A stretch of 64,000 nt of DNA. Origin: Schaalia suimastitidis DSM 15538 (lineage in GTDB: Bacteria > Actinomycetota > Actinomycetes > Actinomycetales > Actinomycetaceae). Below, one piece after another: positions 7,879 to 61,439 of the stretch. Numbering within the stretch: position 1 is the first letter of the stretch; each line of letters opens with the position of its first letter. The notes under the pieces were generated by a model. The model did no database searches. It was given only the letters and a program-made list of their open reading frames with translations, and was not told the DNA's origin. The stretch lies in assembly GCF_000429105.1 (NCBI RefSeq), contig NZ_AUBF01000009.1, positions 62,001 through 126,000 of the forward strand, read 5' to 3'. Both the position numbers and the translations under genes were made by a program.

Positions 7879-8043
7879 ATGGCAGCTATGAAGCCGCGGA
7901 CCGGAGACGGCCCCCTTGAAGCAACGAAGGAAGGGCGTGGCATTGTCATGCGTATTCCCAGTGAAGGTGGTGGGCGTCTCGTTATCGAGCTGACCGCAGA
8001 CGAAGCGAAGGCATTGTCTGAAGCACTCGCTGAAGCACTCTGA
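7879..8043 (+). CDS. DUF3117 family small protein
   Basis: This 54-aa protein begins MAAMKPRTGDGPLEATKEGR and ends in a TADEAKALSEALAEAL helix, the full length of the actinobacterial DUF3117 family. TGGGAGGAG precedes ATG 7879 at good spacing; the frame opens earlier at 7822 but without an initiation signal. The function of the family is unknown. Placement downstream of a LOG-family gene and near an O-methyltransferase and Mrp is like that in mycobacteria. Confidence 0.9.
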   Translation: MAAMKPRTGDGPLEATKEGRGIVMRIPSEGGGRLVIELTADEAKALSEALAEAL

Positions 8044-8153
8044 CCGCCCCTTCGCCGCAGCGATGTGATCGTTTCGATTGCCGAGGCGACGCGATCGTCC
8101 GGCATGTCAGCCACTGATTCACGTGGCGTCACGACGAAGCACCGCGAATACTT

Positions 8154-8188
8154 GTAGCCCCGCTCCTCTTTCCGAGGGCGGGGCTACG
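8154..8188. terminator. Stem-loop after the DUF3117 gene
   Basis: Arms GTAGCCCCGC (8154-8163) and GCGGGGCTAC (8179-8188) pair perfectly around a 15-nt loop. There is no T-tract on either strand. It sits between convergent genes (DUF3117 on plus, O-methyltransferase on minus) and may stop both. No gene is seen in the rest of 8044-8306. Confidence 0.6.
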
Positions 8189-8306
8189 TGTCCGTATCGA
8201 CGCTGACAAGCGGTGTGCATTGGAGGGCATGCGCCGTCAAGCGGTGTGTATTGGGGGCTTTCCCCGTTGCGGGCTGGAGGGCGGGGCATCGCGTGGTCGG
8301 CGGCAC

Positions 8307-8942
8307 CTACATGCGGCGCACTGCCGCCAGCAAACCGTCACCTACAGGCAGCAAACAGGGAATGAAATCATCCGAGGCTCCAAGGAAACGGACAACTTCA
8401 CGGGCGACGACCGTCTCCGGATCACGGCGTGCCGGGTCAGCAACTTGGTCGTTCCACAACGCGTGAGCTACTGCGACAAGACCTCCAGGACGCAGGACAC
8501 GTAAGGCATGGTCCAAATAGTCTGGGGTTTCCATAATGTCAGCGTCGATCAGCATCATGTCGTATCCGCGGGCAGCCATTCGCGGTAAAACGTCAAGGGC
8601 ACGACCAGCGATCAGGCGCGTGCGTTGGGTTGACACACCTGCTGACATATACGCGCGACGTGCGTGTTTTTGGAACTCAACTTCGTGGTCAATGGTGGTG
8701 AGTACGCCGTCGGATGCCATCCCATCGAGCAGCCACAAGCCCGATACGCCAGCACCTGTGCCTACTTCAAGTACTGCACGAGCACCAGATACTGCGGCAA
8801 GCAGACGCAACGCAGCACCCGTTCCAGGAGACACAGGGTGGGCGCCCAACTCAATGGCTGTTTCCCTGGCTTTGGCTACAATTTCGCGTTCGGGAAGAAA
8901 ATCCTCGGCATAGACCCAGGCCTGTGCTTTGTCTACCGTCAT
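8307..8942 (-). CDS. SAM-dependent O-methyltransferase (family 3, caffeoyl-CoA type)
   Basis: This 211-aa class I methyltransferase has a glycine-rich SAM motif VLEVGTGAGVSGLWLLDG near residue 57, an acidic residue in LTTIDHEVEFQ that binds ribose, and MLIDAD near residue 127, typical of the metal-dependent O-methyltransferase family. ATG 8942 follows GGAAGGACCAGG; a frame open to 9062 has no good signal and would run into mrp. A family-3 O-methyltransferase close to mrp is also found in mycobacteria. The acceptor substrate is unknown. Confidence 0.87.
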   Translation of the reverse strand: MTVDKAQAWVYAEDFLPEREIVAKARETAIELGAHPVSPGTGAALRLLAAVSGARAVLEVGTGAGVSGLWLLDGMASDGVLTTIDHEVEFQKHARRAYMSAGVSTQRTRLIAGRALDVLPRMAARGYDMMLIDADIMETPDYLDHALRVLRPGGLVAVAHALWNDQVADPARRDPETVVAREVVRFLGASDDFIPCLLPVGDGLLAAVRRM

Positions 8943-53776: not shown

Positions 53777-54085
53777 TTAGCCCACCGCCTTTTTGTTATC
53801 AGTCATCTTGTTATCGCTCATCTTGTCGTCGGTCATTTTAGTGTCGCTCATTTTGTCGTCGCCGGTCTTTCCGTCGCTCATCTTCCCGTCACTCATTTTG
53901 TCGTCGCCGGTCTTTCCGTCGCTCATCTTTCCATCACTCATTCTGTCGTCCGTCGTATTCGACACCGCTGGCTGATTTTTATTGCTGTTGTTCATAGAAC
54001 CTGAACCAGAGGTGCCACACGCGGCCAATCCCAGTGCGGTGACGATAGCGAGAGAAGATGCTGCGACAAATTTCAAGGTTTTCAT
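53777..54085 (-). CDS. Repeat-containing Met/Lys/Asp-rich lipoprotein
   Basis: This 102-aa protein has a lipoprotein signal peptide (KFVAASSLAIVTALGLAAC, Cys at residue 23) and a short Ser/Asn linker. Its tail is built of 5-residue units of the type DKMSD, GKMSD, GKTGD, about 11 copies, rich in Met, Lys and Asp. Rapid coding repeats with a 15-nt unit can change length without breaking the frame. It is divergent from the DipZ-like gene. Met-rich tails can bind copper or be oxidised and reduced; either fits the redox neighbours, but this is inference. Confidence 0.8.
   Translation of the reverse strand: MKTLKFVAASSLAIVTALGLAACGTSGSGSMNNSNKNQPAVSNTTDDRMSDGKMSDGKTGDDKMSDGKMSDGKTGDDKMSDTKMTDDKMSDNKMTDNKKAVG
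53796..53945. repeat. Tandem 15-nt coding repeats in the lipoprotein gene
   Basis: About ten 15-nt units with a higher-order period of 45 nt: TTTTGTCGTCGCCGGTCTTT is identical at 53851 and 53896. This is a likely hot spot for copy-number change. Confidence 0.85.
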
Positions 54086-54275
54086 GGAGGATGTGTCCTT
54101 TCACTGATGGAGGTATCAGGCGATACCGTCACGAGCTATTCGAAGCACAGCCCCACCGTGGATTGCTCAATAACCTGTGATTCATGTAACGCGCGGAAAC
54201 GAACCTTCGGCCAATCCGAATGAGCATTGGCATCGAACCCTGCATAAGTCATCAGTTCGAAGGAAGAAGGAAAAT

Positions 54276-56129
54276 ATGACGTCATTAATCCTTGTTGGCC
54301 TCCTTGGAGGGTTAATTACGGGAATATCGCCGTGTATTCTCCCGGTTCTACCCGTGATTTTCTTATCGGGTGGTGCGCAATCGGCGCGGCAGGGCGCCAA
54401 GGTTGGAAACATCAATATGGGTGTTGCTCCGGGCATTAACCTGGGTGGTCAGGGTGCTTTACGAGGCCAGGGTGCGTCCGTCGCCCAAAGTGCTTCCGGC
54501 AGCCCAGGCGTGTCGGGCGCACTGGGGACACTCCCAGCACAAGGCAGCCCTGAGGCTCAGCAACGCGCATCCCGGTGGCGACCCTACCTTGTCGTCGCCG
54601 GCCTCGTCCTGAGCTTCACCACATTTACCTTGCTTGGCTCGACGCTGCTCAATCTTTTGCGTCTACCTCAAGACTTCATTCGCTGGACCGGCGTTGTCCT
54701 ATTGGCGTTGATTGGCGTGGGAATGCTCTTCCCCCAAGTGATGGAGATCCTCGAACGTCCTTTCGCTCGCTTCGGCAAAGCTGACACAGGAAAATCGTCC
54801 AACGGGTTCCTCCTCGGCCTGGTTCTTGGCACAGCCTACGTGCCATGCGCCGGTCCTGTGCTTGCTGCCGTGTCAGTCGCAGGTACAACAGGAATGATCG
54901 GAACTGACACAGTCCTCCTTGCAATCTCATTTGGTATAGGTACCGCTATCCCGCTGCTATTTTTTGCGCTCGCAGGGCGACGCCTCACCGAACGTATCGC
55001 CGCATTCCGCACACGTCAGCGCGCTATTCGACTGACCGCTGGTATCGCAATGATCGCGCTTGCTGTCGGCATCGTTTTTGATCTTCCTGCCGTGATTCAA
55101 CGTGCACTGCCTGACTACACTGCTTCGCTCCAAAAGAGCACGGGAGAACTCCTTCGAGGTGGTAGCGCCCCATCGGCCGCTGCTAACGGCACATTGAGAA
55201 ACTGTGTAGATGGTGCAACAGAACTAGCTGATTGTGGTCCACTGCCAAAGATCGACGGGATCCACGCCTGGTTCAATACGCCTAACGGTGCGGCAATTGA
55301 CGAAACCGCACGTCAAGGAAAAGTGACGCTGGTGGATTTTTGGGCCTACTCGTGCATTAACTGCCAACGCTCAATACCGGGAATTGAGCGTCTCCATCAG
55401 ACCTACGCACAATCGGGTCTGCAAGTCATTGGTGTTCACTCACCTGAATACGCTTTCGAAAAAGAGGTGGCGAATGTACAGGCAGGTGCCGAAAAACTGG
55501 GCATCACATATCCGGTGGCGGTCGACTCAGATTTGGTGACGTGGCGTAATTTTGATAATCACTACTGGCCTGCTCATTATCTGGCCGACGCCTCGGGGCG
55601 CCTGCGTCAAATTAAATACGGCGAAGGCGGAGAAGCTAATACTGAGAAGCTCATCCGAGAACTTCTTGTTGCCGCCAACCCGCAAGTGACCTTGCCTGCA
55701 CCGATCTTTGCCACTGAGGATGCCACCGCCTCGCACATTCGTCGTACCCCCGAAACCTATTTGGGAGCGTGGCGTGCCCAGCGGGTGGCGAATGGGATGC
55801 TCACGCAGGGTGAACATCGCTTCGCCTTCCCAGAAAACCTCGATCAGGACCATGTTGCTTTTGATGGGAACTGGCAGGTTGAACACCAGCACATTACGCC
55901 AGCAGGCACGCCTGCCCGTTTGCGCCTGGCCTGGCAAGGGTCTCAGGTGAATGTGGTGGCGTCGGGCGAAGGGAAACTCACGTGGAACAGCAATGGTGTG
56001 CAAAAGACAATGGATGTGGGTGGTGTGCCCAATGCACTGGAACTAGTGCGCACCATGGAGCCAACATCGGGCGTGCTTGAACTAGAAGTTTCCCCAGGGG
56101 TGCAACTGTACTCCTTCACATTTGGGTGA
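54276..56129 (+). CDS. DipZ-like CcdA-thioredoxin membrane protein
   Basis: It is expected to pass electrons across the membrane to extracellular thiols. The 617-aa protein has a CcdA domain (SPCILPVLPVIFLSGG near residue 16; GTAYVPCAGPVLAAV near 190) with six or more helices. Residues about 32-105, between the first two helices, are a Gly/Ala/Gln/Ser-rich insertion not typical of CcdA. An extracellular thioredoxin-like domain has WAYSCINCQRSIPG (CINC near 360). A C-terminal beta-rich domain (about 480-617) follows. This matches mycobacterial DipZ. ATG 54276 has GAAGGAAGAAGG upstream. It lies next to a SigK/RskA-like pair. Confidence 0.9.
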   Translation: MTSLILVGLLGGLITGISPCILPVLPVIFLSGGAQSARQGAKVGNINMGVAPGINLGGQGALRGQGASVAQSASGSPGVSGALGTLPAQGSPEAQQRASRWRPYLVVAGLVLSFTTFTLLGSTLLNLLRLPQDFIRWTGVVLLALIGVGMLFPQVMEILERPFARFGKADTGKSSNGFLLGLVLGTAYVPCAGPVLAAVSVAGTTGMIGTDTVLLAISFGIGTAIPLLFFALAGRRLTERIAAFRTRQRAIRLTAGIAMIALAVGIVFDLPAVIQRALPDYTASLQKSTGELLRGGSAPSAAANGTLRNCVDGATELADCGPLPKIDGIHAWFNTPNGAAIDETARQGKVTLVDFWAYSCINCQRSIPGIERLHQTYAQSGLQVIGVHSPEYAFEKEVANVQAGAEKLGITYPVAVDSDLVTWRNFDNHYWPAHYLADASGRLRQIKYGEGGEANTEKLIRELLVAANPQVTLPAPIFATEDATASHIRRTPETYLGAWRAQRVANGMLTQGEHRFAFPENLDQDHVAFDGNWQVEHQHITPAGTPARLRLAWQGSQVNVVASGEGKLTWNSNGVQKTMDVGGVPNALELVRTMEPTSGVLELEVSPGVQLYSFTFG

Positions 56130-56231
56130 GCCGCACCAGATGCCCGGTTCGGTGAGGCGGTAAGGCCCCCGGGCTGGGGGAAAGGCGGTAAGGCCCCCGA
56201 GCTGGGGGAGTCGCGCCATGTGCCCGACGTC

Positions 56232-56293
56232 ATATGCTCGCGGTGGGTGCGAGGGTATCCCACGTGCTCACCGTGAGCATATCGCCCTATGAT
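56232..56293 (+). promoter_or_regulatory. Inverted repeat and leaderless promoter of the ECF sigma gene
   Basis: ATATGCTCGCGGTG (56232-56245) and CACCGTGAGCATAT (56269-56282) are inverted repeats with one mismatch and a 23-nt gap. TATGAT (56288-56293) lies 6 nt before GTG 56300. The right arm covers the region expected for a -35 element, so a dimeric regulator could control this promoter. Nearer to dipZ lie two GGTAAGGCCCCCGGGCTGGG-like direct copies. Confidence 0.65.
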
Positions 56294-56299
56294 AACTAA

Positions 56300-56854
56300 G
56301 TGAGTTTTCGAGTAACTACTGTCGATGAGATGCTCCTCGTTCGTATCGGACGAGGTGACACGGAGGCATTCGAGCGCTTTTACGACGCATGGTCCGGACG
56401 CCTATTCGCGCTCATCCTCCAAATCCTTGTGGATCACGCACAATCTGAGGAAGTCTTACAGGAAGTGTTTCTGGAAGTATGGAGGCAAGCATCATCATAT
56501 GATCCGCAGCGAGGAAGCGCCCAGGCATGGGTGGTGACCCTGGCTCGCCGCCGCGCAATCGACCGCGTGCGGGCGAGCCAAGCTCACCGCGACCGTGAAG
56601 CAAAAATCCCACACGCCAGTGCCGACTATGATCAAACGGTAGAAAAGGTTGAAGAACGTATGGTCCAAGAAGAAGTACGACATATGCTCAAAGAACTGGG
56701 TGAACCCTACCGTTCGACAATTATCCTGGCTTACTTCACGGGTCTGAGCCACGCACAAATTGCACAGGTCACGCACACTCCGCTTGGCACAGTGAAAACA
56801 CGGATACGGGACGGTCTGTCCCGAATGAGACAATGGATGGAGGCGCAACGATGA
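56300..56854 (+). CDS. ECF sigma factor (SigK-like)
   Basis: This 184-aa RNA polymerase sigma factor has region 2 (residues 14-85: RGDTEAFERFYDAWSGRLFA, SEEVLQEVFLEVWRQ) and region 4 (about 125-178: GEPYRSTIILAYFTGLSHAQ, GTVKTRIRDGLSRMRQW). The latter recognises -35 elements by helix-turn-helix. GTG 56300 lies 6 nt after TATGAT, so the mRNA is leaderless. It overlaps the anti-sigma gene (ATGA). Association with DipZ and a lipoprotein recalls the SigK-RskA-DipZ-MPT83 set of mycobacteria. Confidence 0.9.
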   Translation: MSFRVTTVDEMLLVRIGRGDTEAFERFYDAWSGRLFALILQILVDHAQSEEVLQEVFLEVWRQASSYDPQRGSAQAWVVTLARRRAIDRVRASQAHRDREAKIPHASADYDQTVEKVEERMVQEEVRHMLKELGEPYRSTIILAYFTGLSHAQIAQVTHTPLGTVKTRIRDGLSRMRQWMEAQR

Positions 56855-57690
56855 GCGACGAATTTGACGACATCACGAACGAGGCGGCCGCTGCCTTAGG
56901 CGCCTCACTGCGCCCGGTCGCCCCACCCCCTGCGATCAAAGCTGCACTGATGCGGGCCGTCACTTCAAGTGGGCAAGACGAGGCGTCGCCTCGTCAGGCA
57001 GCCCAGGCGGACGAAGCACGGCAGACGGACGGGGTAACAGAGCAGATGGATGGAGCAACGCTGACGGACGAAGCAGGGCAGACGGACAGTATCGGGCAGG
57101 CAAATGAGTCAGGGCGAATGGCTGAGCCAGCACAGACAGCCGAGTTAGCACAGGCGGATCGGTCAGCGGCCCAAGGTGCGCCTGCGCCCGTTACGCCACT
57201 GCGGCCTCGGCAATTCCGAACCTTTGCATTACGAGGCGTAGCCGCGGTCCTGCTTCTCCTTGCCGGTGCGGGCATTGGCCGGTGGAGCGCAATGGACTCA
57301 ATGGAACCGTCAATGCACTACGCGAAACTGAATCAAGCGCAAGACGTCGAACGTGTGGCTGACGTGATGCCTGATGGACACGTGGCAACACTGACATGGT
57401 CTCGTGGAATGGAGATGACTGCGCTGACACTACCGGCCGAACTTCAACAGTCTCACGGTTTGGCTCTACAGTTGTGGCGACGCCAAAACGGAGTGGTCAC
57501 ACCCTTAGGAATGTATTCACCCAGCAAAGGAACATCATTTTCCTTTATCGACATCATGCCCGAACCAGGTCTGGAAATCCTGGTCACAATTGAACCTGAA
57601 GGAGGCTCAGCACAGCCTTCAGGGGAGCCTGTAGTGGTACTCCGCGTGGCCGACGATACTCAGAAAGAGTCAACACTGGTGACAGCATAA
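56851..57690 (+). CDS. RskA-like membrane anti-sigma factor
   Basis: This 279-aa protein has a short N-terminal segment (about 45 aa) without the Cys/His zinc motif of many anti-sigma domains. A 55-residue disordered linker of Gln/Asp/Ala-rich degenerate repeats (QTDGVTEQMDGATLTDEAGQ) follows. It then has one transmembrane helix (FALRGVAAVLLLLAGAGIG, near 125) and an RskA C-terminal domain (LTLPAELQQSHGLALQLWR near 195, FIDIMPEPGLEILVTIEPEG near 235). It should bind its sigma at the membrane and be cleaved on signal. The very short sigma-binding part is unusual. Confidence 0.82.
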   Translation: MSDEFDDITNEAAAALGASLRPVAPPPAIKAALMRAVTSSGQDEASPRQAAQADEARQTDGVTEQMDGATLTDEAGQTDSIGQANESGRMAEPAQTAELAQADRSAAQGAPAPVTPLRPRQFRTFALRGVAAVLLLLAGAGIGRWSAMDSMEPSMHYAKLNQAQDVERVADVMPDGHVATLTWSRGMEMTALTLPAELQQSHGLALQLWRRQNGVVTPLGMYSPSKGTSFSFIDIMPEPGLEILVTIEPEGGSAQPSGEPVVVLRVADDTQKESTLVTA

Positions 57691-57866: not shown

Positions 57867-59189
57867 TTAGTTGCCTGAGTCGGCAAGATGCTCAATGACG
57901 TGTAAAGAACCAAGGTCAGGCGCATCCCCCGTTGGATTGGAGAAATGAACCGTGTTCCACCCTGCTTTTAGTGGTGCCTCGAAACCAACTTCGGCATAGT
58001 TTCCACCAAAGCTCCCAGAGTATAGACCTCGTAGAACAATCGGACTATCGTCGTTGACCGTGATGTGAACATCGCGGCGCTCGCCGCTACGGAAATCCAC
58101 GGCAAGACGGTAATTCCCGTCGGCTGGTGCCCATACTTGAGTGAGCGTCGCATCATTGCCTTCTCCGCCAAGCCAACGTGTTGAACCTTTTTCGGCGACC
58201 GTTTGGCCGCGTAGGAATCCATTATTGACTTGAACAGCGTAAGGAAGTGTCGGTTGTGCCTGGTATGCCCGGAAGTAATCGACCTCAAAGGTTTTCGGAT
58301 AGGGGGTGTGAGGGTCGAAAGGTCCTGTCCACGAACTCCCCATTTTTTCGTAGACACCTATGAATGTCATCATCGGGTAATCAGGAGATTGCCACGTGGA
58401 GTGCACGAGTTTGCCGTCGACGTACAGTTTCATGCCTGAGGGAAGCCATTCGAAACCGTAGGTATGCCACTGGCTGGTGAAATCTGAGCCGTCACCAAAA
58501 TGTGCTCGACTTGGCCAGAGTTTGAAGTAGTCTCCCCACGTGTGGGTGCTAAAGAGAGCTTCCTTTCCGCCGTACCGGCCCAGGATCTCAAAAATATCAA
58601 CCTCACCGGACTGTCGTGCCTGCGTATTGGCCCCGATAGGCTGATCTTGGTTGACGCCGGTCATCCACCACGCAGAGTGGACGCCACCGCCTGGTGCTGC
58701 TTTTGCTCGTAACTCAAAGTAGCCGTATTTTTGCAGATGCCCGCGGAATGGTTCGACGTGCTGCGCAACATTGGGATAGGAGGTCCAGCGGTGGATGTAA
58801 TCCTTGTTGAAAGTCTGGATGGACGAGATTTTGGTGTCGCCGTCTCTGGCGGGGTCCCACGGTGCGTCCTCGCGATTAATCGTGAGTTTAAGGGTACCGT
58901 TGTCAACCTGATAGCGCGCTTTCGTCCCCGGTGACGTTGACCAATGTGGAAGATATTCGTCACTAAATAGTTGGCGATTGATATCTGTCGAATTGAACTC
59001 TTCTGATGCTGTAATGACATAACCTGGCCGCTCAGGGGTCTGTGGGTCAATCAGCGAGGATGTAGGTGGGGGAAGTGGGCCGTTGATCGGTGCGCTATTT
59101 GCCGAGGCGGCATGCGGCAGGAGCGGTAGGGCAAGTGCACTTACGGCCAGCGTCGTGATCAGTGTGAAATGCCATTGTCTGGAGTGCAT
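57867..59189 (-). CDS. Secreted glycoside hydrolase family 16 protein with C-terminal CBM-like domain
   Basis: The 440-aa protein starts at ATG 59189 (AAAGGACACC upstream) with a signal peptide (LITTLAVSALALPLLPHAAS). The GH16 catalytic domain (about residues 50-310) has the nucleophile/acid motif GEVDIFEILG near residue 195 (ExDxxE). It also has HSAWWMTG and WHTYGFEWLPSGMKLYVDGK. GH16 enzymes cut beta-1,3 or 1,3-1,4-glucans, xyloglucans or galactans; the residues seen do not fix the substrate. A C-terminal beta-sandwich (about 330-440; PADGNYRLAVDF, LKAGWNTVHFSNP) looks like a CBM6/35 module. It lies downstream of the ROK gene. Confidence 0.88.
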   Translation of the reverse strand: MHSRQWHFTLITTLAVSALALPLLPHAASANSAPINGPLPPPTSSLIDPQTPERPGYVITASEEFNSTDINRQLFSDEYLPHWSTSPGTKARYQVDNGTLKLTINREDAPWDPARDGDTKISSIQTFNKDYIHRWTSYPNVAQHVEPFRGHLQKYGYFELRAKAAPGGGVHSAWWMTGVNQDQPIGANTQARQSGEVDIFEILGRYGGKEALFSTHTWGDYFKLWPSRAHFGDGSDFTSQWHTYGFEWLPSGMKLYVDGKLVHSTWQSPDYPMMTFIGVYEKMGSSWTGPFDPHTPYPKTFEVDYFRAYQAQPTLPYAVQVNNGFLRGQTVAEKGSTRWLGGEGNDATLTQVWAPADGNYRLAVDFRSGERRDVHITVNDDSPIVLRGLYSGSFGGNYAEVGFEAPLKAGWNTVHFSNPTGDAPDLGSLHVIEHLADSGN

Positions 59190-59263
59190 ATAGGTGTCCT
59201 TTCGTGACGACATTGTCGGTAGTGGTGTGTGCGAGGCACACGGCTTGGCGCGCATCGACTCAT

Positions 59264-60439
59264 TTAGTACTCACCTTCCCAAAGGGAACCTGGAGTGGGG
59301 GAGGGGAAATAATCGGCCTCATGGACGAGGCGCGCCAAGGCATCGTTGATTGCATCAAGCCCGTAGCGGGCTGCGCCGAGAATGATTTCTTTACCGGCGA
59401 GCTGTGAGGCGGTGATCGTCGGCATAAAGGGGCATATTTGTGAGAGTCGTTCCTCTAGGCCCGGCACAATGAGTTCTGAGTATGCGGCGAAACGGCCACC
59501 AAGGACAACGCATTGTGGGGCGAGCGCCAAGATCATGGCGGCTGTCCCCAGGCTGAGCACATCAATGTAGGCATCGATGGCAGCCAGTGCTTGCTGATCG
59601 CCTGCCTGTGCCGCTGGGAAGAGTTCGACCCGTGGAGGCTGACCCTTCGGGTACAGGTGTGTGGCAAAACATTCATTTTCGAGGTCGCGCCACTGTAACG
59701 CTGGAAGTTCCCCAATGAGCCCGGCGCTTCCTTGAAAGCCTCCGTGGACGCGGCCCGAGATTACGGCGGCGGCGCCTGTGCGTCGCCCAGCAAGGATATA
59801 TAGGACGTTGTCGAGACCTGCTGCCGCGCCTTTCCATGATTCGCCGCGCGCGCCAAGGGCGCAGTCACCAGCCACAATCGTTTTGGTTGACAGGGCGTGC
59901 GAGAGTGCCGAGGCAAGGTTTGTACCGACCCAGCCAGGCATTCCGTGACCGCCGAAGTAGGTGACTGTGCCGTCATGAACGATGCCTGGTGTGGCGACGG
60001 AGCAGATAAGGGTGCTTCCGGGAGCTGCTTCCTGTGCGTGCTTCGCTAAGGTGATGCCACGATCGAGGCGTTGCTGGGTTGGTGTCTCTTCCTGGCAGCT
60101 TTCCTCGTAATCGGTGAGGATCTCGCCATTCAGGGTTGTAGTCATTACGCCAATGTGGTGGGCACCAAAAGAGATGGCCAGAACATGTCCCGATGATGGT
60201 GCCAGGTGGTAGTAGCTAGCTGGACGGCCAAGTGACGACAAGGTGTCAGGTGGTGCTGTTTCACTGATCCAGCCCAGTGCCTTAAGGTCTGAGACCACTG
60301 CTTCGGCGCCGGGGCGCGTTAAATCACTCAGACGTGCTAGCTCGCTGATTGTTTGGGCAGATTGCGTGCAATGTGACAGGACGGAAGCCATATTTGCTCG
60401 GCGTTGAATACGTCGGCGAGCGGTGGGTGTGGTCGTCAT
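59264..60439 (-). CDS. ROK-family transcriptional regulator
   Basis: This 391-aa protein has an N-terminal winged helix (about residues 10-70: ISELARLSDLTRPGAEAVVS) and a ROK sugar-binding domain (about 90-385). The latter has GAHHIGVMTTTLNGEIL near 105, VATPGIVHDGTV near 155 and VLGGRFAAYSELIVPG near 330. The canonical CxCGxxGC zinc motif is replaced by LQWRDLENECFATHL, so the zinc site is largely missing. ATG 60439 has AAGGGGG upstream; longer frames are unsupported. It is divergent from the ABC importer and upstream of GH16, so it probably represses both. Confidence 0.85.
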   Translation of the reverse strand: MTTTPTARRRIQRRANMASVLSHCTQSAQTISELARLSDLTRPGAEAVVSDLKALGWISETAPPDTLSSLGRPASYYHLAPSSGHVLAISFGAHHIGVMTTTLNGEILTDYEESCQEETPTQQRLDRGITLAKHAQEAAPGSTLICSVATPGIVHDGTVTYFGGHGMPGWVGTNLASALSHALSTKTIVAGDCALGARGESWKGAAAGLDNVLYILAGRRTGAAAVISGRVHGGFQGSAGLIGELPALQWRDLENECFATHLYPKGQPPRVELFPAAQAGDQQALAAIDAYIDVLSLGTAAMILALAPQCVVLGGRFAAYSELIVPGLEERLSQICPFMPTITASQLAGKEIILGAARYGLDAINDALARLVHEADYFPSPTPGSLWEGEY

Positions 60440-60450
60440 TGTCGGCCCCC

Positions 60451-60481
60451 TTTTGACATACAAAAGAAACTTGCATAATAA
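60451..60481 (+). promoter_or_regulatory. Promoter and candidate ROK operator of the sugar importer
   Basis: TTGACA (60453-60458) and TAATAA (60476-60481) are 17 bp apart, a near-consensus promoter. An inverted repeat TTTTG-N5-CAAAA (60451-60465) overlaps the -35. It lies 11 nt from the ROK start in the divergent spacer, so it may control both directions. Confidence 0.65.
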
Positions 60482-60512
60482 TATCAGCACTGTTGACGGA
60501 ATGGGGATATCA

Positions 60513-61439
60513 ATGACGACTATTCTTTCACCCGCCTCCAAGAAGACGAGGAAAACGCGCACCAATGCGCGCGCACGGCATGAAAGCCTAGTGGCATTAG
60601 CTTTTATTGCACCCGCCTGCCTGGGATTCATCGTGTTCTACCTATTCCCAATGATGCGCGGTGTACAGATCAGTTTCACCGACTGGGACCTGTTGACTGC
60701 GCCGAAGTGGGTGGGCCTGGATAATTACACAACGCTGCTGGCCGACACCCATTTCCACAACGCCCTCCTCATCACCGCCACCTACGTGGTGGTCAATATC
60801 AGCACACAGACAGCCGCAGGTTTCGGTATTGCCCTACTGATGCAACGCATCAGCCAGTCAACCCTGGTCCGTTCGCTGCTCCTCGTGCCGTGGCTAGTAC
60901 CAAATGTCACCATCGCCGTGATCACACTGTTCATCCTTGACCCCAACGTTGGGCTACTCAACCACCTCATGGGATATATCGGCGTTGGCCCCATTGCCTT
61001 TTATGGGAACCCTGATATCGCCATCATCACGGTAGCTCTGGTGAACTCCTGGCGAAATATGGGCTACACAGCACTCCTCATCTTCGCGGGCATGCAGATC
61101 ATACCCAAGATGGTTTACGAAGCCGCTGAACTAGATGGCGCCAGTACGCTCCGCACCACCTTCTCAATCACACTGCCGCTAATCCGGCCCGTGCTGGTCA
61201 TGGTCGTCGTAGTGTCCATGATCGGTTCGTTCCAAATATTCGACACCGTGGCTGTCGCAACGAAAGGCGGGCCAATCGGCTCCACACGCGTCATCTACTT
61301 CTATATCTACGAAAAAGCCTTCCAACAAGGCCAAATGGGCTACGCCGCAGCCATGGCAGTCGCGCTGCTCATCATCATCCTTGCCATGACGTTGCTTCAA
61401 CTTCGTCTAACCCGCGCAACCGAAACAGACTTGGACTGA
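60513..61439 (+). CDS. Carbohydrate ABC transporter permease (MalF-like)
   Basis: This 308-aa protein has six transmembrane helices and a MalF-type EAA loop (YEAAELDGASTLRTTFSITL, near residue 210) that contacts the ATPase. The start is ATG 60513; ATG 60501 is also possible. It is first in a permease-permease-binding protein operon. No ATPase is encoded here, so a shared MsiK-type ATPase elsewhere is likely. Confidence 0.9.
   Translation: MTTILSPASKKTRKTRTNARARHESLVALAFIAPACLGFIVFYLFPMMRGVQISFTDWDLLTAPKWVGLDNYTTLLADTHFHNALLITATYVVVNISTQTAAGFGIALLMQRISQSTLVRSLLLVPWLVPNVTIAVITLFILDPNVGLLNHLMGYIGVGPIAFYGNPDIAIITVALVNSWRNMGYTALLIFAGMQIIPKMVYEAAELDGASTLRTTFSITLPLIRPVLVMVVVVSMIGSFQIFDTVAVATKGGPIGSTRVIYFYIYEKAFQQGQMGYAAAMAVALLIIILAMTLLQLRLTRATETDLD

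Follow-up and report, generated by a model that had tools for sequence, protein, structure and literature searches.

At positions 53,777 to 57,690 of the window analysed here, a 64,000-nucleotide stretch of Schaalia suimastitidis DSM 15538 (contig NZ_AUBF01000009.1, positions 62,001 to 126,000; genome of 2.29 Mb), a gene for a repeat lipoprotein (lpp) lies divergently to dipZ, which is followed by the genes for a SigK-like extracytoplasmic function (ECF) sigma factor and an RskA-like anti-sigma factor (Table 1). An open reading frame (ORF) check recovered all four genes where a preliminary description, made from the sequence alone, had placed them, and the divergent arrangement it gave was borne out. 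Its interpretation holds in part: a SigK/RskA-like pair together with DipZ, a shared promoter motif and a conserved lipoprotein are present, whereas the contiguity of the set turned out to be known already. The best start of dipZ, as read from the sequence, is the ATG at 54276; that of the anti-sigma gene is likely the ATG at 56851, which overlaps the stop codon of the sigma gene.

Table 1 Genes and predicted regulatory elements of the lpp-dipZ locus in the window
Feature	Position	Strand	Basis
lpp, Met/Asp/Lys repeat lipoprotein, 102 aa	53777..54085	-	ORF, tandem repeat, relatives, composition
SigK-type promoter of lpp, predicted: -35 CAATCC (54160-54165), N17, -10 CGAA (54139-54142), 53 bp to ATG	54139..54165	-	
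CRP/GlxR-like palindrome GTGATTCATGTAAC, 7/8 match to GTGA-N6-TCAC	54177..54190	.	Case rests on relatives
SigK-type promoter of dipZ, predicted: CAATCC, N16, CGAA, 38 bp to ATG	54212..54237	+	
dipZ: CcdA-type membrane domain, TlpA-like thioredoxin domain (SCINCQ) and C-terminal domain	54276..56129	+	Pfam, 2hyx alignment
Inverted repeat of about 20 bp between dipZ and the sigma gene, possible attenuator	56230..56282 (ends approximate)	+	Folding z -3.98 (entire 170-nt gap)
SigK-like ECF sigma factor, no cysteines	56300..56854	+	Pfam, NF007228 score, alignment
RskA-like anti-sigma factor, outer domain with conserved Met/His/Trp	56833..57690	+	Pfam PF10099, alignment, structure prediction

Pfam matches above cut-off were obtained for DsbD_TM, AhpC/TSA and Thioredoxin_10 in DipZ; the sigma factor matched sigma-70 regions 2 and 4. 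All parts expected of a DipZ protein were found, namely the membrane domain, the thioredoxin CxxC motif (read from the sequence) and the C-terminal domain, and residues 301-617 of the outer part aligned with M. tuberculosis DipZ (2hyx) at an E-value of 4.2e-83. Two related genomes (G001 and G002) encode a second DipZ after rskA (L066, 10008-11867, and L069, 10016-11875), which is 55% and 52% identical to the S. suimastitidis protein and lacks a SigK motif of its own. The sigma factor scored 208.4 bits against the SigK family NF007228, its best match among 95 families; as the cut-off of 226 was not reached, we refer to it as SigK-like and not as SigK. Its computed context is that of SigK, with an adjoining RskA-type anti-sigma gene and a conserved motif before dipZ. 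In M. tuberculosis SigK, the oxidation state of a cysteine pair alters binding to RskA, and natural SigK proteins without this pair exist (PMC7509140). The corresponding places, 133 and 183, are occupied by Met and Trp in S. suimastitidis. Among 22 sigma factors, a set that contains near-duplicates and one from Corynebacterium, none carries Cys there, though some do at other places.

The lpp product bears the lipobox LAAC and a hydrophilic low-complexity tail of MSDGK-like pentapeptides, which appears in the DNA as a tandem repeat with a 45-bp period (score 188). Nine of the 80 residues of the mature chain (11%) are Met. No Pfam or NCBIfam family matched above its cut-off; a fasciclin domain is thus absent, in agreement with the preliminary description, according to which MPT83 is replaced here by a dissimilar lipoprotein. 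The tail pattern, M-x-D-x-K, differs from that of the known MXKDX family, and none of 12 genomes reached the 41-bit cut-off of the MXKDX/MrpX family TIGR02953 (best score 20.6, at the lpp of G031). Against HvfA (NF050188), a family of metallophores of the ribosomally synthesised and post-translationally modified peptide type, lpp scored 18.5 bits compared to a cut-off of 95, and its sole Cys is that of the lipobox.

Conservation of the lipoprotein in related loci had been named beforehand as a check. A strong profile match (E 2.6e-18 or better) occurred in 12 of 35 genomes of the genus, the same 12 that encode a full-length DipZ, with an internal stop in dipZ of one of them (G013). Eleven of these 12 also have the sigma gene, which at E 1e-20 was found in 0 of the remaining 23. 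A further match in G015 (E 2.4e-10) was rejected, as it contains two stops and has a neighbour that looks SmpB-like by eye. Among 396 genomes sampled from the order, lpp was detected at E 1e-12 in 10, all of one and the same family. The named genomes with the closest DipZ include Arcanobacterium, Actinomyces and Schaalia, together with one Corynebacterium, which points to the Actinomycetaceae as the family of the locus, and the divergent lpp-dipZ arrangement is present in named genomes as well. The module of A. culturomici (L074/L098) has decayed: dipZ is interrupted by a stop and homologues of the sigma and anti-sigma genes were not found, while lpp persists together with the promoter motif. 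In Corynebacterium sp. HS2168-gen11 (L090, 7995-11276), dipZ, sigK and rskA apparently lie within a cell-division/cell-wall cluster, flanked by murD-like and ftsW-like genes (both judged by eye).

A sigma-type motif common to lpp and dipZ, the other check named beforehand, was found in the form CAATCC-N16/17-YCGAA before both genes. We call it SigK-type by comparison with the consensus of M. tuberculosis SigK. It was first spotted by eye and then tested statistically. The strict form, CMATCC-N16/17-CGAA, occurred in 6 of 17 regions on the dipZ side and in 9 of 17 on the lpp side, compared to a mean of 0.05 in shuffled sequences for both sides together. Using a leave-one-out matrix, the S. suimastitidis sites scored 18.1 bits (lpp) and 18.8 bits (dipZ), neither being equalled in 150 shuffles, and 10 of 19 loci, S. 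suimastitidis among them, had good sites on both strands (at most 1 of 150 shuffles). The dipZ site lies 29-44 bp before the ATG in 16 of the 19 loci and 69 bp before it in A. oris and A. johnsonii; the dipZ ATG of L095 is not pinned, and the regions of L087, L089, L095 and L102, being of fixed length, give approximate distances to the start of lpp. Loci added after the motif had been fixed carried the slightly looser form NVATCC-N16/17-CGAA on all 8 lpp strands and on 5 of 6 dipZ strands, a count that leaves out L210, which repeats A. oris L091 (dipZ strand only). Near-duplicates (L072-L074, L093, L094) were dropped from the motif and palindrome counts, and L095 and L101 also from the strict count; the contigs of L085, L086, L088, L092 and L096-L098 are already represented by entries within L064-L074. 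By the matrix, a convincing lpp-side site is absent in A. oris, A. johnsonii, A. bovis and Corynebacterium, and no lipoprotein was recognised beside dipZ in the latter two. As related loci are not independent, we do not read these counts as probabilities. At the level of predicted promoters, a circuit joining lpp and dipZ is well supported by computation.

It is improbable that the motif, though real, is used by a different sigma factor or a repressor and that its neighbourhood misleads. Such a regulator would fit the lack of a motif of its own before the sigma gene (0 of 6 upstream regions tested), the dipZ gene of L077 without the motif, and L075, a locus of another family, where the motif precedes dipZ and no SigK homologue was found within 13 kb around. 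The motif nonetheless tracks the module. It was found before none of six short dipZ genes without an adjacent sigma gene, and in other families it precedes the dipZ gene of L076, a locus with a SigK homologue, and a lipoprotein gene next to the SigK homologue of L077. Across the S. suimastitidis genome, 35 matches (CAATCC, spacer 14-19) and 16 matches (CCATCC, spacer 16-17) were obtained, and 45 of these 51 were examined in context for a wider regulon. Seven of the 45 lie outside ORFs of more than 150 aa: the lpp and dipZ sites, L036, L043, L051, L157 and L171. Two of these, L043 and L171, lie 62 and 64 bp ahead of an ORF and may represent true promoters. A loose form of the pattern before msrA or msrB in 3 of 24 loci was in no case accepted as a promoter.

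The two -35 elements flank a palindrome, GTGA-N6-TCAC, matched at 7 or more of its 8 positions in 18 of 20 two-promoter loci, with 0.21 expected from shuffled sequences. It was first noticed by eye in part of the loci and was found again in those added later. The S. suimastitidis site alone, at 7/8, is equalled by 2% of shuffles. The site was chosen by its score, without regard to phase. It lies 0, 10, 11 or 21 bp from the lpp -35 element (22 loci) and 0, 10-12 or 20-23 bp from the dipZ -35 element (24 loci); the distinct spacings are phased at 10.5 bp on each side (p 0.0001 each, simple random draw). The spacings are 11 and 21 bp in S. suimastitidis, in L100 the palindrome touches both -35 elements, and in Corynebacterium L090 GTGATTTATTTCAC lies 20 bp from a weak dipZ -35 element. 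The test omitted L102 (4/8, gap of 46 bp) and took only the dipZ side of L090, where no lipoprotein is found, and of L065, L091 and L101, in which the lpp side has no site. Steps of about one helical turn are the pattern expected from a dimer that contacts RNA polymerase from a fixed face of the DNA. From its consensus, CRP/GlxR would be the natural candidate for a protein binding this site.

By analogy with the Brucella system discussed below, our analysis favours an oxidant sink, helped by DipZ, as first choice for the role of the lipoprotein. Among 19 measured lipoproteins, 15 contain 4-19 Met per mature chain (7-31%) and no Cys beyond that of the lipobox; the other four, three from A. oris and one from A. 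johnsonii, are Gln/Gly-rich with 0-1 Met. The set omits L087, L089 and L095, which were missed by the lipobox pattern. Promoter and Met-rich tail also associate apart from dipZ. In G214, the lipoprotein gene beside dipZ (L210), identical letter for letter to that of A. oris CCUG 34288 (L091), lacks both methionines and motif, whereas a second, Met-rich lipoprotein gene on another contig carries CCATCC-N16-CCGAA and, 10 bp upstream of it, the palindrome GTGA-N6-TCAC. G339 is arranged in the same way, with ACATCC-N16-CCGAA, and no homologues of DipZ, the sigma factor or the anti-sigma factor were found within the 18 kb around each of the two unlinked copies, which may reflect one evolutionary event. 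In L077, two small Met-rich lipoproteins are encoded between dipZ and the sigma gene (7925-8428), one of which contains DSMED repeats and is immediately preceded by a SigK motif. That the lipoprotein instead acts as a charged spacer at the surface or as a partner for the anti-sigma factor, its Met being incidental to a flexible polyampholyte, would suit the widely varying tails, the Gln/Gly-rich ones among them, and the near lack of hydrophobic residues in all 19 proteins. We consider it unlikely, because Met is retained in the other 15, because the unlinked Met-rich copy of A. oris has a SigK-type promoter, and because L077, from another family, again has Met-rich lipoproteins next to a SigK homologue.

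The anti-sigma factor matched RskA_C (PF10099) with 39.6 bits (cut-off 29.4) and the NCBIfam anti-sigma family NF052375 with 78.7 bits, below the cut-off of 100. Conserved residues of its outer domain are Met154, 157, 179, 193, 195 and 242, His183 and Trp189. In 19 outer domains, Met179, Trp189 and Met242 are found in all, Met157 and His183 in 18, Met193 and Met195 in 17 and Met154 in 16. These domains contain 5-11 Met per 121-134 residues; the nine C-terminal parts of DipZ that were examined have 0-4 per about 300 residues. AlphaFold2 gave a confident model of the domain (mean predicted local distance difference test score 86.9). In fold searches with the domain, Foldseek returned nothing at E 0.001 or better; the best Z was 6.6, and FetP copper proteins scored 4.6-5.2, below the stated background. 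A possible lead is that the Met-rich anti-sigma factor is linked to the missing SigK cysteines: L077 has a SigK homologue without cysteines and a very Met-rich RskA, and L076 a SigK homologue with both cysteines and a Met-poor RskA. Within the anti-sigma gene, 18-bp repeats at 57004-57087 code for a linker rich in Gln, Thr and Asp.

The main rival to the oxidant sink is a copper/silver module, in which the outer Met, His and Trp of RskA would sense Cu(I)/Ag(I), the lipoprotein would act as a metal sponge and DipZ would keep outer thiols reduced during copper stress. SilF, whose ligands for Ag(I)/Cu(I) are His63, Trp71, Met74 and Met76, offers a parallel to the conserved Met/His/Trp set, and the same source also cites a silver sponge of the periplasm that is disordered (PMC10656224). 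Twelve of the 19 lipoproteins contain His (10 of the 15 Met-rich and 2 of the 4 Met-poor ones, none in S. suimastitidis), M-x2-H or H-x2-M occurs in six and adjacent MM in three. The sponge cited with SilF goes by the name of SilE. Conversely, MxxM is found in 0 of the 19 lipoproteins and MxM in two (L064, L069). A SilF-like metal site is not supported, as H-x5-W-x3-MxM of S. suimastitidis differs from that of SilF and the strand prediction would put His183 at one end of a strand and Met193 at the other. We hold the copper/silver module to be rather unlikely, if less so than the spacer.

Taken together, we tentatively propose, as a nearly even prospect, that the locus forms a self-contained envelope stress circuit in which a SigK-like sigma factor acts on divergent promoters and the Met-rich lipoprotein serves as oxidant sink. 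The RskA-like protein would keep the sigma factor at the membrane and read the surface through its Met-rich outer domain, until surface oxidation, perhaps by hypohalous acid or peroxide, frees it. The freed sigma factor would then fire the two promoters that carry the motif, and a CRP-family protein bound midway may act on both from one face of the DNA. One promoter would yield the lipoprotein, its oxidisable surface methionines being spent as a sink; the other would yield DipZ, which, judging from its family, passes electrons across the membrane to outer thiols. As none of the six sigma-gene upstream regions carries its own motif, the dipZ transcript probably continues past the hairpin into the sigma and anti-sigma genes, which would provide positive feedback. 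The circuit draws its support from the loci added later, the phasing of the palindrome and the unlinked lpp copies. A bolder version remains doubtful: a methionine-to-methionine circuit with a Met sensor in the anti-sigma factor, a sigma factor without cysteine switch, a Met-rich sink and a phased CRP-family activator on two ECF promoters, which would have arisen independently of the Brucella and Azospira systems discussed below and perhaps more than once within Actinobacteria.

Several observations weigh against this proposal. The dipZ-side motif is weak in A. massiliensis and A. dentalis (L089, L095), the lpp-side motif is weak or missing in A. mediterranea (L065), whose tail holds just 4 Met, and the dipZ-linked lipoproteins of A. 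oris and A. johnsonii, with 0-1 Met, have no promoter motif. The palindromes of L064 and L067 reach 6/8 only, and L102 has none (4/8). The related loci are not independent, the link between Met-rich anti-sigma factor and missing cysteines rests on three lineages, and the motif is commoner in the S. suimastitidis genome than a backward control (16 versus 3), so that single matches carry little meaning. MsrP was found in none of the 12 genomes searched, each of which has one MsrA and one MsrB, and those of S. suimastitidis show no signal peptide by eye and look cytoplasmic; recycling of an oxidised tail is thus unexplained, and the tail is perhaps simply spent. A crude regular-expression scan of 39 loci (L064-L102) revealed no fasciclin or Msr gene nearby.

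The gap between dipZ and the sigma gene (56130-56299) contains a 28-bp GC-rich direct repeat besides the inverted repeat, with strong predicted folding; among the compared sequences, this was found only in the S. suimastitidis genome. Adjoining the locus at 57867-61439, genes for a GH16 glycosidase, a ROK regulator and a sugar-type ATP-binding cassette permease form a probable glucan-use locus.

To our knowledge, the signal and purpose of the mycobacterial SigK-RskA-DipZ system have not been settled. Here, another branch fits an entire SigK-type circuit within 4 kb and pairs it with an effector of a very different kind. This points towards copper or the oxidation of methionine at the surface as the stress, which is testable in an oral Actinomyces. 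A CRP-like site in phase with two ECF promoters would, if true, be an unusual form of control. Within the literature searched, from which most subscription papers were out of reach, a Met-rich lipoprotein as SigK-type target, a phased palindrome and a Met-rich anti-sigma factor were not found.

The mycobacterial regulon (mpt83-dipZ-mpt70) shares with the locus a SigK-like sigma factor, an RskA-like anti-sigma factor, DipZ and a surface lipoprotein, and SigK sites have been described as highly conserved across Actinobacteria (PMC7509140). Its genes lie in two separate loci (PMC10540498), as the preliminary description had it, whereas S. suimastitidis has a single contiguous block, a Met-rich repeat lipoprotein without fasciclin domain, a sigma factor lacking both redox cysteines and a CRP-like site between divergent promoters. 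The outer domains of M. tuberculosis DipZ (2hyx, 5cyy) align with those found here, although the gene context differs. The contiguous block is present as the preliminary description claimed, yet it is not new, since cskE, sigK and dipZ of C. pseudotuberculosis are listed side by side (PMC3078919). Corynebacterium L090 also has contiguous dipZ, sigma and anti-sigma genes, but no Met-rich lipoprotein was recognised beside this block. In Azospira, the yedYZ-mrpX genes are likewise under an ECF sigma factor. The closest tested system that our analysis identified is Brucella BcrS/AbcS-bcrXQP, a hypochlorous acid-inducible ECF pair driving a Met-rich repeat peptide together with the envelope reductase MsrQP (PMC8315932). 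Unlike the locus described here, the Brucella and Azospira systems use the ECF16 motif GTAAC-N17-CGAA, MsrPQ instead of DipZ, and a protein of the MXKDX family.

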